DNA of 64,000 bases from Salinilacihabitans rarus (lineage in GTDB: Archaea; Halobacteriota; Halobacteria; Halobacteriales; Natrialbaceae). The notes below the pieces were generated by a model. That model did no database searches, was not told where the DNA came from, and was given only the letters and a program-made list of their open reading frames with translations. This document shows positions 28,683 through 34,647 of the stretch, one piece after another. Where the stretch lies: the NCBI RefSeq assembly GCF_024296665.1, contig NZ_CP100762.1:2294001-2358000 (forward strand), written 5' to 3'. Within the stretch, counting starts at the first letter, position 1. Every line of letters begins with the position of its first letter. The position numbers were made by a program, and so were the translations under genes.

Positions 28683-30023
28683 ATGAGCGACGACCCGACC
28701 CCGCCGCCCGGCTTCGCCACCCGGAGCGTCCACGCGGGCGCCGACCCGGACCCGGCGACGGGCGCGGCCGCGCCGCCGATCCACCAGACCACCTCCTACG
28801 TCTTCGAGAGCGCCGACGTCGCGGCCGAGCGCTACGCGCTGGAGCGGGACGGCCACATCTACTCGCGGATCAGCAACCCGACGGTCGAGGCCCTAGAGGA
28901 GCGACTGGCGGCACTCGAAGGCGGGACCGGCGCGGTCGCGACCGCCAGCGGGATGGCCGCGCTCGACTCGCTGACGCTCGTGCTCGCGAAGGCGGGCGAG
29001 AACGTCGTCTGTTCGACGGACACCTACGGCGGGACGACGGCCTACTTCGCGAAGACGGCCTCGCGGCGGGAGATCGAGACGCGGTTCGTCCCGACGCTGG
29101 AGTACGACGCCTACGCGGCGGCCATCGACGAGGACACCGCGTTCGTCCACGTCGAGACGATCGGCAACCCGTCGCTCGTCACCCCGGACTTCGAGCGACT
29201 GGCCGGGATCGCCCACGAGAACGACGTCCCGCTCGTGGTCGACAACACGTTCGCGACGCCGGCGCTCTGCCGGCCGCTGGAGCACGGCGCGGACGTCGTC
29301 TGGGAGTCGACGACGAAGTGGCTCCACGGCTCCGGGGCGACCGTCGGCGGCGTCCTCGTCGACGGCGGCGACTTCCCGTGGGACGAGGCGGGCTACGAGG
29401 AGATCGCCGGACAGAACGACGCCTACCACGACGTCGACTTCTCGCGGGACTTCCCCGAGGCGCCGCTGGCCGCCGCCGCCCGCTTCCGGTCGGTCCGCAG
29501 CCTCGGCAACCAGCAGTCGCCGTTCGACGCCTGGAACACCCTGCAGGGGCTCGAGTCGCTGCCGCTGCGGATGGCGAAACACTGCGAGAACGCCGCGATC
29601 GTCGCCGACTACCTCGACGACCACCCCAACGTGGCGTGGGTCTCGTACCCGGGTCTGGAGTCCCATCCGACCCACGAGGCGGCCTCGCGGTATCTCGCCG
29701 GTGAGCCGAGCGGAGCGAGGCGATCCTCGACGGACGTTCCGTCCGTCGTAGGGTACGGCGGGATGATCGCGTTCGGCCTCGAAGGCGGCTACGAGGCCGG
29801 GAAGACCTTCTGCGAGAGCGTCGACCTCGCGTCGTTCCTCGCGAACGTCGGCGACGCGAAGACGCTCGTCATCCACCCCGCGAGCACGACCCACGGCCAG
29901 CTAACGCCCGAGGAGCAAGCGGAGGCGGGCGTCACGCCGGATCTGGTCCGGCTCTCGGTCGGCATCGAGGACCCCGCGGACCTGCTCGCGGACCTCGAGC
30001 GGGCGATCGAACGGGCGACGTAG
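28683..30023 (+). CDS. metY: O-acetylhomoserine aminocarboxypropyltransferase (sulfhydrylase), PLP enzyme
   Basis: This 446-residue Cys/Met-metabolism PLP enzyme makes homocysteine from O-acetylhomoserine and sulfide. It has the YSRISNPT substrate segment (60-67), the ATASGMAA turn, VDNTFATP (186-193) and the Schiff-base lysine K212 in STTKWLHG. The C-terminal ASTTHGQLTPEEQ block is typical of the O-acetylhomoserine sulfhydrylase branch. Residues about 340-356 are an insertion rich in Ser/Arg/Val, coded by palindromes (see findings). metX, which supplies its substrate, lies downstream but is cut off by a minus-strand island. Confidence 0.92.
   Translation: MSDDPTPPPGFATRSVHAGADPDPATGAAAPPIHQTTSYVFESADVAAERYALERDGHIYSRISNPTVEALEERLAALEGGTGAVATASGMAALDSLTLVLAKAGENVVCSTDTYGGTTAYFAKTASRREIETRFVPTLEYDAYAAAIDEDTAFVHVETIGNPSLVTPDFERLAGIAHENDVPLVVDNTFATPALCRPLEHGADVVWESTTKWLHGSGATVGGVLVDGGDFPWDEAGYEEIAGQNDAYHDVDFSRDFPEAPLAAAARFRSVRSLGNQQSPFDAWNTLQGLESLPLRMAKHCENAAIVADYLDDHPNVAWVSYPGLESHPTHEAASRYLAGEPSGARRSSTDVPSVVGYGGMIAFGLEGGYEAGKTFCESVDLASFLANVGDAKTLVIHPASTTHGQLTPEEQAEAGVTPDLVRLSVGIEDPADLLADLERAIERAT
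29700..29750 (+). repeat. Palindrome-bearing in-frame insertion within metY
   Basis: This stretch adds about 17 residues between ASRYLAG and GYGGMIAF, which normally lie almost adjacent. It contains CGACGGACG (29728-29736) paired with CGTCCGTCG (29740-29748) around TTC, preceded by GAGCCGAGCGGAGCGAG (29703-29719). Its length keeps the reading frame. Confidence 0.6.
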
Positions 30024-30271
30024 CCGGAGTCCGGACCCCGCGTCGCTCGTCGACGGGGACTGCCGGTTCCCGCCGCCCGGTCGGGACGTCACGCGACGGA
30101 GGCGGCGTACGCCGTTCCCGGAACGACCGCGAAGACGACGAGCGAGAGCGCCGTCCCGCGCGACGGGACCCCGAATCCCGTCCCGGAGCCGTCGTACCGG
30201 CTCAGCCACGGCGAACGCGTCGTCGAGGACGACGCAGCCGTGAGGTCACGTTGCTCTTCGAGACCGTCTGC
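30024..30271. other. Intergenic stretch between metY and the lipoprotein gene
   Basis: No gene is certain here. On the minus strand a frame ending at 30089 reads a hydrophobic tail (ALSLVVFAVVPGTAYAASVA before the stop), which may be the C-terminal remnant of a membrane-anchored protein; no start or upstream domain is found. No tRNA, terminator or repeat was recognised. Confidence 0.3.
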
Positions 30272-30760
30272 TTACGGTTTCGGGGGAAGCCCCTCGTTAC
30301 ACTCGCGGTACGCTGTCACCAGCCAGCCGTCCTCGTCGTCGTACACCGCCACCGCGAGTTCGGTCTCGATCTCGTTGTCGCACGGCGATTCGGTCGCGCT
30401 GTACGTCAGCGTGGTCGGAAAGGCGGAACACTCCACCTCGACCGGAAGCCCGTTCCCGCCGGGGTACGTTTCGGAAATCGTTCCGATTTCCAGGTTGCAG
30501 ATCTCCGACCTGTTACGATCGTATCCGTGGACGCGGACGTCGTGGAACGTTGCCAAATCGTCGGGGCCCTGGTGTTGTTTTTGGAGTTCGAACGTGACCG
30601 TCCAGGCGTCCTCCGTTTCTTCGACTCGGATCTCTCCGAACGAGAGTTCTCTCCACGGGCCTCGATCGGGTTGGCCGCACCCGGCGAGCAGCGATGCTAC
30701 CGCACTCCCGAACGCGCCCATCAGTTCCCGCCGTCGCAGCGATCGGATCACGGTCGTCAC
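30272..30760 (-). CDS. Tat lipoprotein, function unknown
   Basis: This 162-residue protein begins with RRRELMGAFGSAVASLLAGC, a twin-arginine-like signal with a lipobox Cys at 28. The mature part (about 35-150) is beta-rich with four further cysteines that could form disulfides. No family is recognised. It overlaps by 4 nt the end of the broken metalloprotease gene upstream on the same strand, so the two were probably one operon. Base composition is lower in G+C than metY and metX on either side. Confidence 0.65.
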   Translation of the reverse strand: MTTVIRSLRRRELMGAFGSAVASLLAGCGQPDRGPWRELSFGEIRVEETEDAWTVTFELQKQHQGPDDLATFHDVRVHGYDRNRSEICNLEIGTISETYPGGNGLPVEVECSAFPTTLTYSATESPCDNEIETELAVAVYDDEDGWLVTAYRECNEGLPPKP

Positions 30761-31544
30761 CGGTCGCGTGATGGTACGTCTTCGAAATCGATCGTACTCA
30801 GCTCTTCGAGACTAAACGCTAACCTCGGCGTCGGGCCGGTACCGAGGTCGTTCGCCGTTCCGGCTCTCATGATGCTCCATCTCGGATTGGGGCCGTTCGC
30901 GTACTCGGGCGTCTCGTCCGGTTCGAAGTTATTGCCGTTGATGTCGCCGCTGTAGACCTCCATGCCCTTCGGGACCACGCCGATTCCCGCGACCTCGATC
31001 GCCGTGTCGTCGGCCCACCCGACGCCGAGGACGTGACCGGCCTCGTGCATCGTCACCGATTGTAATCCGTGAACGTCCGACGAACTGAACCTGTCGGCGG
31101 CGATCATCGCCCCCACTCATTTTCGATCCACGTCGCTCGTTCAGTCCCCGGTGCGCCGTTGTTGAACGCGATCCGAGCGCCCCGTCGATGTCACTGCCGA
31201 GCGCATCGTCGACCGGCGTTCCCGGAGACTGCGCTTTGAGGTTCGATCCCAGTAGAGGTGCAGTGCTTCGTCGTCATCGTGGTACTCGTCTTCGATGATG
31301 CCGAGTTCCCAGCGATTCGCGTCGTCGCTCGCAATCGTCTCCAAACAGCCCGTAGAGCCGGTGTGGAGGCCCGAATCGAGCATCGACGCCGGATCGTCCC
31401 CGCGAGGGCGTTGTACTTGCAAATCGCCTCGAGTTCGTCGACGTCGCTCTCGTCGTCGACGACGATTTCCACGTCGAGGTCGTACGGTCTGAAGTTTCGC
31501 TCGGCAACCGATCGCGATGGCCGCTGGTTTCGATCGCATTGGTG
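30757..31544 (-). pseudogene. Broken zinc metalloprotease gene (metzincin-like, four frameshifts)
   Basis: The intact 3' part (GTG at 31116 to 30757) carries HEAGHVLGVGW, the zinc-binding helix of a metzincin-like peptidase, and SIMRAG as a possible Met-turn. Upstream pieces in three frames join into one sensible acidic protein when a single base is added at each of four runs: G4 at 31398-31401, A3 at 31233-31235, G4 at 31180-31183 and G5 at 31110-31114 (minus strand bases). The joined text includes VDDESDVDELEAICKYNALAG, then GCLETIASDDANRWELG, IAFNNGAPGTERATWIENEW and the HEAGH helix. I could not locate a signal peptide or true start near 31544. It is either decayed or misassembled. Confidence 0.75.
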
Positions 31545-31573
31545 TCATCACAGGCTACATATTGAAAATTCTT

Positions 31574-31594
31574 ACTGTAGTGTGTGCATACAGT
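31574..31594. promoter_or_regulatory. Dyad in the metX/metalloprotease intergenic region
   Basis: ACTGTA (31574-31579) pairs with TACAGT (31589-31594) over 9 nt in an AT-rich stretch between the broken protease gene (minus) and metX (plus). The remaining 244-nt interval (31545-31788) also holds GTTATTAGACC at 31684-31694, the likely TATA element for metX, and nothing else I recognise. Confidence 0.35.
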
Positions 31595-31788
31595 TTCGGA
31601 ACGAAAGTTCGCCTCGGGACCGCGAACGGCGTCCGCGCCCCGCGCACCGACCGAGAAGCGAGCGAATCTTGCCGTAACTGAGAGTTATTAGACCATTCAA
31701 GAATATGCACGACATACATGACACGCGACGGAGCGGCGGCCGCGTCGGGGCGAGGGCCGTGCCGCGGGATGCCGGCGAGGTGGACACC

Positions 31789-33042
31789 GTGAGCACGACG
31801 CGCGACGTCGTCGACCTCGGGGAGTTTACGTTCGAGTGCGGGGAGTCGATCCCGCGACTCGAGGTCGCCTACGAGACCTACGGCGAGTTCGACGGGAGCA
31901 ACGCCGTCCTCGTCTGTCACGCCCTCACGGGCAGCGCCCACGTCGCGCGCCGGCCGGACGCGGGCGACGGGACGGCCGGCCAGGCCCGCGCGTGGTGGGG
32001 CGACGTCGTCGGCCCCGGGAAGGCCATCGACACGACCGAGTACTACGTGGTCTGTGCGAACGTCCCCGGTTCCTGCTACGGGACGACGGGGCCCGCAAGC
32101 GAGAACCCCGAGACGGGCGAACCCTACGGCACCGACTTCCCGCCCGTGACCGTCGGCGACTGGACCCGCGCCCAGCGGCGCCTGCTGGACGAACTCGGCG
32201 TCGGGCGCCTGCGCGCGGTCGTCGGCGGGAGCGTCGGCGGGATGAACGTCTTGGACTGGCTGCGCCGGTACCCCGACGACCTCGAACGTGCGGCCGCCAT
32301 CGCGGCCGCCCCACGGCTGGACGCCCAGTGTCTCGCGCTCGACGCCGTCGCCCGGCGGGCGATCACGAGCGACCCGAACTGGAACGGCGGCCACTACTAC
32401 GGCGTCTCCGAGAGCGAAGCGAGCGGTGGCTCGTCGGAGTCCGGCGGCGGCCCCGAACCCGACGAGGGACTGGCCCGCGCGCGCCAGATCGGTCACGTCA
32501 TGTACCTCTCGAAGGCGTCGATGGGCCGGAAGTTCGGCCGGCGGGCCGCCGGCCGCGAGGCCGTCCGGGACGAACCGCCGGACCCCGCCGCCGCATTCTT
32601 CCCCTACCGCGAGGTCGAGTCGTACCTCGACTATCAGGCCGAGCGCTTCGTCGACCGGTTCGACGCGAACAGCTACCTCTACCTGACGCGGGCGATGGAC
32701 GACTTCGACCTCTCGGCCGGCTACGAGTCCGACGCCGACGCGCTCGCGGCGTTCGAGGGCGAACTCCTCGCGCTCTCCTTTACCGGCGACTGGCACTTCA
32801 CCGTCGAGCAGTCGGAAGCGCTCGCGGAGGCGGGCCGCGAGGCGGGCGCCGATGTCGCCCACCACGTCGTCGACTCCGACCACGGCCACGACGCGTTCCT
32901 CGTCGAACCCGAGAAGGTCGGACCGCCGCTGTCGGCGCTGCTCGACGCCGGGTTGGCGGGCCGGGCGATCACCGATACGGGACCGGAGGAACCCGAACGG
33001 GAGACGTTCGCGCCGGTCCACACCAGCCTCTTTGGCAACTGA
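31789..33042 (+). CDS. metX: Homoserine O-acetyltransferase
   Basis: This 417-residue alpha/beta-hydrolase-fold enzyme acetylates homoserine with acetyl-CoA, the first committed step to methionine. The nucleophile elbow is GGSVGGMN, the oxyanion region HALTGSAH, and the catalytic Asp and His lie in GDWHF and DHGHDAF. I chose the GTG at 31789 ([14 protein letters not shown]) as it matches the family N-terminus; an ATG at 31705 would add 28 residues but lies before the expected transcription start. A Ser/Glu/Gly-rich loop, [17 protein letters not shown], is an insertion coded at about 32407-32457. Its product feeds MetY. Confidence 0.92.
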
Positions 33043-33134: not shown

Positions 33135-34196
33135 ATGGAAAATGCAATTAGAGTCGACGACGACGAGCGGGTGACGGTCGACTCGAACGACGACGACGAG
33201 GAGGCCCCGGCCGAGGAGACGGATCGGTCGGTCGTCCTGCGGGTTCGCGAGTCCGCGTCGAGCACGCTGGACGACGTTTCGGAGCGAGTCCCGGATCGAA
33301 CGACCGCGACGCGGGTCCGGGAGTCCACGCGGCGCCGCCTCGACGGCGTCTCCGGGAAGGTACCGGGCCGGGCGACGGCTGCGCGGTTCCGGGAGGCGGC
33401 GTCGGGCGCGCTCGGTACCGTCTCCGGCGGGCTACCGGACCGAACGACGGCCGCGCGGGTCCGCGAATCCGCGCGGGCCCGCCTCGACGGCGTCGCCGCC
33501 GGCACGTCGGCCCGCGCGGAAGCGACGGGGGAGCGGGGCCGGGCGTCGGCGGCGCGATGGCGGGAGGCCGCGGCGCGGTATCGGACGGCCGCGGCGCGTC
33601 GCGTCGGCGCCCTGCCGCTCGCAGAGGGGTTCGTCTTCGGCGCCGGGGCGTTCCTGTTCGGCTACGTCCTGACGGTCGTGGCGACGGCGAGCGCCCGCGC
33701 GGGCGCCGCCGGGGCGAGCGAGGCGCCGGCCGTCCCGACGCACGCGGCGTGGTCGTACCTGGCCGCGCTCGGCGTCGGCCTCGAACGCGGGGGCGAGACG
33801 GTGTCCGTCGCCGAGGCGGCGGGCACGACGACGGGGGTCGTTCCGGCGATAGGCCTCGTGGCGGTCGGCGTCGCCGCCGCCGCGGGCTACCTGCTCGCCG
33901 AGTACGCCGGCGCCGACGACGCGGCGAGCGCGGTCGAGGCGTCCGCGCTGGTCGCCGCCGGCTACGTCGCGTTCGCGCCGGGTCTGGCGCTGCTCGCGAC
34001 GCGGATGCCCGGAGGCGCGACGGTCGTGCCCGCCGTCGTCGACGCGGTGGTCTACGCGGGCGTCCTCGTCCCGGCGGCGTTCGGCGTCGTCGGCGGCCTC
34101 GCCGCCGCGTGGCCCGACCCGGCCGACCGGGTCGTCGACCTGACCCACCGGATCGTCGGCCGGACCCGCCGAGCCGTCGCGCGGGTGACCGACTGA
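33135..34196 (+). CDS. Membrane protein with four 24-residue amphipathic repeats
   Basis: This 353-residue protein begins with an acidic N-terminus (1-35), then four tandem 24-residue repeats (36-59, 60-83, 84-107 and 108-131) of the form RVRES-x-x-x-LDGV-x-x-x-PDRTTA, giving a basic amphipathic helix. A further basic helix (about 138-160) leads to five or six membrane segments (about 163-350), whose start LAEGFVFGAGAFLFGYV resembles a haloarchaeal membrane-domain family. A TATA element AATTTATAATAC lies about 25-35 nt before the ATG. The repeats may associate with DNA, RNA or the membrane surface; function is unknown. Confidence 0.7.
   Translation: MENAIRVDDDERVTVDSNDDDEEAPAEETDRSVVLRVRESASSTLDDVSERVPDRTTATRVRESTRRRLDGVSGKVPGRATAARFREAASGALGTVSGGLPDRTTAARVRESARARLDGVAAGTSARAEATGERGRASAARWREAAARYRTAAARRVGALPLAEGFVFGAGAFLFGYVLTVVATASARAGAAGASEAPAVPTHAAWSYLAALGVGLERGGETVSVAEAAGTTTGVVPAIGLVAVGVAAAAGYLLAEYAGADDAASAVEASALVAAGYVAFAPGLALLATRMPGGATVVPAVVDAVVYAGVLVPAAFGVVGGLAAAWPDPADRVVDLTHRIVGRTRRAVARVTD
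33240..33527 (+). repeat. 72-bp in-frame tandem repeat, four copies
   Basis: The repeat codes for four 24-residue units in the membrane protein above. Copies are diverged at the DNA level but keep exact length, with no spacers. The pattern is a coding repeat, not CRISPR. Confidence 0.8.
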
Positions 34197-34227
34197 CGCT
34201 CGCGGCCGCCGCGGCCGGACTCCGGCG

Positions 34228-34647
34228 TCAGTCGCCGGCGACGCCGGGCGCGTCGACGGCCTCGCGGTCGCGGGGCGACGTCGGCGGGGCCGCCGCCTCG
34301 GCCGTCACGTACTGGTCGGCGACCGACGCGGGGTCGCGGCGTCGCTCGACCACGCGACGGACGTCCCGGGCGAGCAGTCGGAGGTCCTCGCGACGGGTGA
34401 GCGTCCCGGCGCCGGTGCCGGGAGAGCGGAAAAGCGCGATTAACGCCCACATGCTGCCGGCCGAGAGCGCCCCGGCCGCCGAGAACGTCATGTCGAGCGT
34501 GGTGAAGGTGACCGCGTAGGCGCCGCCGACGGTCATCGACGGCAGACTCGTGCCGAGCGGAACGCGCGCCGACGAGTCCCGCAGCGTGGGAGCGAGGAAG
34601 ACGATCGAGAGGCCGCTGCCGAGCATGAACACGAGGTCTTGCCACAT
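34228..34647 (-). CDS. Small membrane protein, function unknown
   Basis: I read 139 residues from an ATG at 34647 (MWQDLVFMLGSGLSIVFLA). Two or three hydrophobic segments (about 5-20, 34-48 and 52-72) include a TLDMTFSAAGALSAGSMWALIALF stretch, followed by a polar Arg-rich tail (about 75-139). The TATA-like TTTTTACTC about 25-35 nt upstream supports this start over an ATG 16 codons earlier. I recognise no family. It converges with the repeat-bearing membrane gene. Confidence 0.6.
   Translation of the reverse strand: MWQDLVFMLGSGLSIVFLAPTLRDSSARVPLGTSLPSMTVGGAYAVTFTTLDMTFSAAGALSAGSMWALIALFRSPGTGAGTLTRREDLRLLARDVRRVVERRRDPASVADQYVTAEAAAPPTSPRDREAVDAPGVAGD

Follow-up and report, generated by a model that had tools for sequence, protein, structure and literature searches.

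A low-G+C island between metY and metX

Two genes on the minus strand separate metY from metX in the window, by which we mean the whole 64,000-nt stretch of Salinilacihabitans rarus DNA analysed here (Table 1). One is the broken remainder of a gene for the C-terminal end, or tip, of a large surface protein; the other is an intact lipoprotein gene, whose GTG start overlaps the TGA stop of the tip as GTGA (30757-30760). The earlier note on this DNA had placed the broken gene in an island of lower G+C, and we found the same: G+C is 58-63% in the island and ~72% in the surroundings, while GC3 is 0.77-0.79 for the tip and the lipoprotein as against 0.92-0.95 for metY and metX.

Table 1. Features of the metY–metX region (positions are those of the window)
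Feature	Position	Strand	Basis
metY, O-acetylhomoserine aminocarboxypropyltransferase-type, intact left neighbour	28683..30023	+	homologue in 125/125 same-family genomes
metY–metX island	30024..31704	.	same-family locus comparison and G+C shift
intact 162-aa Tat-type lipoprotein (RRR...LLAGC), putative partner/immunity protein	30272..30760	-	homology and N-terminal motifs
pseudogene: 5'-truncated C-terminal metzincin-like tip of large VWA/TSP3 surface protein, ~5 frame breaks	30757..31566	-	homology
WSIM, the tip family's W-S-x-M, candidate metzincin Met-turn	30868..30879	-	W and M invariant in alignment
HEAGH zinc-binding motif	31033..31047	-	sequence; HExGH conserved in tip family
frame break including G5 31110-31114, bounded by stop codons	31106..31119	-	frames and alignment
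frame break including G4 31180-31183	31174..31200	-	alignment
frame break, best at G3 31248-31250	31240..31252	-	homologues read W-G-T/S-x-L/Y
frame break, not placeable by homology	31354..31421	-	region unalignable; both frames open throughout
probable fifth break, net loss ~7 nt relative to the G408 homologue	31500..31525	-	upstream homology
metX, homoserine O-acetyltransferase-type, intact right neighbour	31705..33042	+	homologue alignments

The spacing between metY and metX is 1,681 nt in the window. In 28 of the 29 same-family metY loci compared, metX directly abuts metY, and the remaining locus, in genome G008, has a different insert of 819 nt, indicating that the metY–metX junction acquired DNA on at least two occasions. 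The tip/lipoprotein island itself occurred in none of the other same-family loci in the comparison. The G008 insert (L066) carries a cytidine-deaminase-like ORF on its minus strand (909-1343), named from its sequence alone. Direct and inverted repeats flanking the island were considered as mobile-element boundaries and rejected, as they resemble chance matches: the 12-nt CACGCGACGGAG occurs as a pair at 30090/31722, and roughly one such pair would be expected by our estimate. No tRNA was found at the island, and there were no Rfam matches. A scan for sigma-70 promoters is uninformative for archaea. The true start of metX may lie at about aa 28-31 of its ORF, since numerous alignments to homologues start only at aa 28-33. 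Elsewhere in the window's genome there is a second metY-like gene, with 70% identity (G000:C1:2969675-2970955), and the stretch beside metX at 33250-34500 reaches ~80% G+C, higher than its surroundings.

The broken frames join into the tip of a surface protein

On the minus strand from 31544 to 30757, three frames hold successive, adjoining pieces of one protein. We joined these pieces, with X placed at the joints, and used the result as a query, which identified unbroken homologues in 12 of the 391 haloarchaeal genomes searched. The best of these, in genome G408, covered residues 1-251 of 253 (E 2.9e-67, 58% identity), and the other 11 were weaker. The earlier note had proposed that the frames form a single protein with the zinc helix HEAGHVLGVGW (31047-31015) and had named alignment to orthologues as a check; the unbroken orthologues proved collinear with the joined protein, so that its reconstruction as one HExxH protein is correct in outline.

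We saw no in-frame start codon at the 5' end of the tip; the piece begins within a larger protein. The G408 homologue itself forms the C-terminal end of a 1,641-aa protein in which TSP3 repeats and a VWA domain also occur, and the other full-length parents measure 1,490-1,634 aa, with the tip forming their C-terminal ~245-260 residues. What lies in the window is therefore a surface-protein tip and not a stand-alone protease gene: the "metalloprotease gene" of the earlier note stands as an HExxH protein but falls as a free-standing gene, being an orphan C-terminal tip whose partner, a lipoprotein gene, is intact. The window's genome, a single contig that is 99% complete, contains this tip in a single copy, and beyond a VWA match no core protein was found in it. 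Apart from two marginal profile hits, the tip was absent from other same-family genomes; no tips were found on viral contigs, and a search of genome contigs for close relatives returned one locus only.

The tip family shares the motifs HExGH, G-x-x-D-D, E-x-Y-S-G, W-S-x-M and S-x-E-E. It has the HExxH helix in common with metzincins (snapalysin M7, pappalysin, reprolysin/matrixin), in the form HEAGH in the window, and its conserved downstream W-S-x-M is a candidate Met-turn. Metzincins usually have GxxH, in place of which the tip family has G-x-x-D-D; this exceeds the canonical HExxHxxGxx(H/D) spacing by two residues. The best Pfam profile match of the tip was to snapalysin, at a sub-threshold E of 0.04, and its best fold matches were likewise metzincins (PAPP-A/ADAM folds), with TM-scores of only 0.3-0.5. 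Profile and fold each point weakly to a metzincin-like tip, which would presumably be proteolytic. HExGH is present in most members of the family, yet some intact ones have EExGH, which calls catalysis into question. Three unbroken tips of this kind (L037, L040 and L041) lack the first zinc-binding His and conserve the other motifs.

The lipoprotein gene is intact and conserved

Among the 19 aligned partner sequences, the twin-arginine RR and the lipobox GC are invariant in all. The best relative of the window's lipoprotein is its G408 orthologue (64% identical), which is preceded by a tip remnant of ~41 residues (69% identical), and genome SW_10_66_29 has the same order, a ~41-aa tip remnant followed by the orthologous lipoprotein. 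These short tips indicate decay of the tip with the partner kept, in the same type of cassette. The partner is predicted to fold as a beta-sandwich, for which we found no informative PDB match. Divergence of the lipoprotein is dominated by third codon positions (0.30/0.19/0.57 at the three positions) and the corresponding values for the tip are 0.28/0.23/0.52.

Since the conserved residues of the tip are unchanged, and its codon-position divergence is near that of the intact lipoprotein, the breaks in the tip are, judged from sequence, young. In the same terms the tip is a pseudogene, having lost its open frame relative to intact orthologues.

The frame breaks are losses, several at G runs

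Exactly four single-base losses, all in homopolymer runs, had been proposed to break the gene. The breaks at G5 (31110-31114) and G4 (31180-31183) agree with the alignment, and stop codons confine the former to ~31106-31119. The break assigned to an A3 run at 31233-31235 was misplaced: that run is actually at 31235-31237, and the homologues (LFW-G-T/S-x-L/Y) put the break ~12 bases upstream, at G3 31248-31250. A break does lie in the region of the G4 run at 31398-31401, but not demonstrably at that site, as ~65 nt there align with no homologue. Upstream of the interval considered earlier, a further frame shows probable homology as far as ~31566 (YVACDDTNAIETS vs YVEGRDPEAITTS), suggesting a fifth break near 31500-31525, probably something other than the simple loss of a homopolymer base. 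Judged on its score only, this unanchored extension has a p of about 0.01-0.04, and its position is collinear to within 7 nt; a repeat alignment with a shorter reference did not reach ~31566. With one break misplaced, one unplaceable, a fifth probable and no start codon, the count of four and its confinement to runs could not be maintained.

All of the frame breaks are losses, and there are no stop codons in the tip outside the frame changes. Runs of at least 3 make up 11% of the bases of the tip piece and runs of at least 4 make up 3.4%, and a placement interval of 15-31 nt contains a run of at least 3 in 41-74% of cases. Given this uncertainty of placement, the link of the losses to runs is suggestive, not overwhelming. 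Replication slippage is a plausible source of the losses at G runs.

Genome-wide homopolymer undercalling is rejected

We surveyed reading frames with a coding model over 464 kb of the window's genome, sampled as 20 stretches. The survey returned ~70 same-strand frame changes, and, leaving aside the tip and a single weak case of 120 nt, each had the stop codon of the upstream gene within ~25 nt of the change, so that these look like ordinary gene ends. The sampled coding sequence contains ~3,620 G/C runs of at least 4; besides those in the tip, it shows one weak frame break at most. On simulated data the detector found 117 of 120 single deletions; of the 120 intact pieces, 17 were wrongly reported as broken. 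These results rule out homopolymer undercalling across the genome; of the two run-length causes offered in the earlier note, slippage is retained as plausible and undercalling throughout the assembly is not.

That the homopolymers were nevertheless undercalled, and that the tip is a single open frame in the living cell, would fit with placeable breaks that are all losses in or beside G runs, and with a tip whose conserved residues are intact and whose only stops fall at frame changes. The survey argues against this, as do the contiguity and completeness of the assembly, the lack of a visible start codon together with the probable fifth deletion outside a run, and the erosion of the tip of the orthologous cassette in two other genomes, and we consider it improbable. 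A purely local assembly fault over the tip breaks retains a small probability. Programmed frameshifting, by which the broken frames would still give a functional protein, accords with the preserved residues and with breaks at G runs, but four to five shifts would be needed within ~0.8 kb of a sequence with no start seen, whereas the intact homologues need none and conserved shift sites are absent in relatives; we rejected this explanation as extremely improbable.

Tips and partners alternate in other haloarchaea

In most tip–partner pairs the start of the partner gene lies between -7 and +4 nt from the stop of the tip, and in four genomes (G185, G193, G126 and G328) the genes of the two form alternating arrays. 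Orphan tips elsewhere keep the last 41-217 residues, cut at differing points; some are frameshifted and several retain open frames. Across 14 pairs, tip and partner co-diverged (Mantel r 0.71, 0/5000 permutations), a correlation that is uncorrected for shared genome ancestry, and nearest neighbours of tip and partner agree in only 7 of the 14. Where the C-terminal domain of a core-bearing protein could be read, it nearly always belonged to the same tip family, the exception being one weak core match (L137), and exchange of unrelated toxin domains on a shared core was not seen among them.

A probable decayed orphan cassette resembling a toxin/immunity module

In bacteria, immunity has been proposed as the reason for the retention of orphan modules of the CDI (cdiA-CT/cdiI) and Rhs systems (PMC4927057). 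Those orphans, too, derive from the 3' end of a large gene for a surface protein, are displaced and lack a start; behind each of them comes a small partner gene, and the full-length gene is followed by tandem arrays of them. The haloarchaeal system differs in being archaeal, in a core built of VWA and TSP3 elements where the bacterial proteins have filamentous haemagglutinin or Rhs repeats, in a partner that is an exported lipoprotein and in tips of one metzincin-like family; the window's cassette differs further in being solitary, with the core gene absent from the genome. Archaeal polymorphic toxin systems have also been predicted (Zhang et al. 2012, PMC3482391; Makarova et al. 2019, mBio e00715-19, as cited in PMC8416519). 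PMC8416519 describes them as having long first genes, arrays of genes homologous to their C-termini and adjacent partners, as at the tip loci. The commonest archaeal toxin moieties given for these systems are nucleases, in contrast to the metzincin-like tip.

Two properties of polymorphic toxin systems are found at the tip loci generally, a tip carried on a much larger surface protein and a small cognate gene directly downstream, and tandem 5'-truncated tips near a full-length gene are found in the four array-bearing genomes but not in the window's. As no swapping of unrelated toxin domains was seen, we describe the locus as working like a polymorphic toxin system and do not class it as a member. 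By analogy, we infer that the tip/lipoprotein locus works like an orphan toxin/immunity module, in which the tip would be the toxin and the lipoprotein the immunity protein.

The locus is probably a laterally acquired orphan cassette, whose tip has decayed into a real pseudogene and whose lipoprotein has been retained, putatively for immunity. Its acquisition from another haloarchaeal family would be the simplest account of the sequence comparisons. At donor-type loci, a full-length VWA/TSP3 protein displays the tip, the gene for an exported, membrane-anchored partner follows directly, and behind it come more tips, displaced and 5'-truncated, that are likewise paired with partners of their own. 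The 3' end of such a large haloarchaeal surface-protein gene, together with its coupled lipoprotein gene, would have been inserted between metY and metX. Start-less and core-less, the tip would have been free to decay while its partner protected, and would recently have lost its frame through ~5 deletions, several of them slippage-like losses in short G runs; the lipoprotein would most likely have been kept for protecting the cell surface from the matching tip of neighbours.

A different role for the pair, in which the tip is a surface protease and the lipoprotein its inhibitor, chaperone or receptor in remodelling or recognition, with the window's copy decayed, would suit the metzincin-like fold suggested by the comparisons, the VWA/TSP3 surface architecture and the presence of a single tip family only. 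Arrays in which every truncated tip has a fast-diverging cognate partner, and retention of the partner after loss of the tip are nonetheless more typical of effector/immunity pairs, and we think this role rather unlikely. Still less do we favor the orphan as a silent reservoir cassette kept for recombination onto a core gene, which is a known model for CDI/Rhs orphans (PMC4927057) and is in keeping with the open frames of several orphan tips elsewhere: the window's genome has no core gene for such recombination and the window's tip is frame-broken, making this very unlikely here.

The locus is ordinary in mechanism; what it exposes is the tip–lipoprotein arrays of haloarchaea. If the preferred reading of a decayed cassette with a retained partner holds, a suspected sequencing fault becomes a readable evolutionary event, in which an effector-like tip decays beside an intact partner, repeatedly and in different haloarchaea. 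Only tentatively, as a possibility that we would not call probable, do we suggest a wider and undescribed form of surface antagonism in haloarchaea, in which a VWA/TSP3 fibre would present a metzincin-like tip, kin immunity would come from the adjacent lipoprotein, tips would decay and immunity lipoproteins would spread alone across families; solitary lipoproteins such as the window's would then be "immunity-only" acquisitions. Should the partner be an immunity protein, the two would offer a testable protein pair for contact-dependent antagonism in archaea, which has so far been mostly predicted.

Among full-length relatives, a distant one forms the end of a 1,490-aa protein of Halomicrobium mukohataei, encoded on the plasmid pHmuk01 (L120, NC_013201.1, 3170-8112), annotated as hypothetical and situated near an IS1595 transposase; its partner apparently has a single membrane span in place of the lipobox. 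Several other core or tip copies, L133 and L145 (G233), L144 (G230) and L150 (G328), are truncated or contain stop codons, suggesting that the large surface genes decay too.
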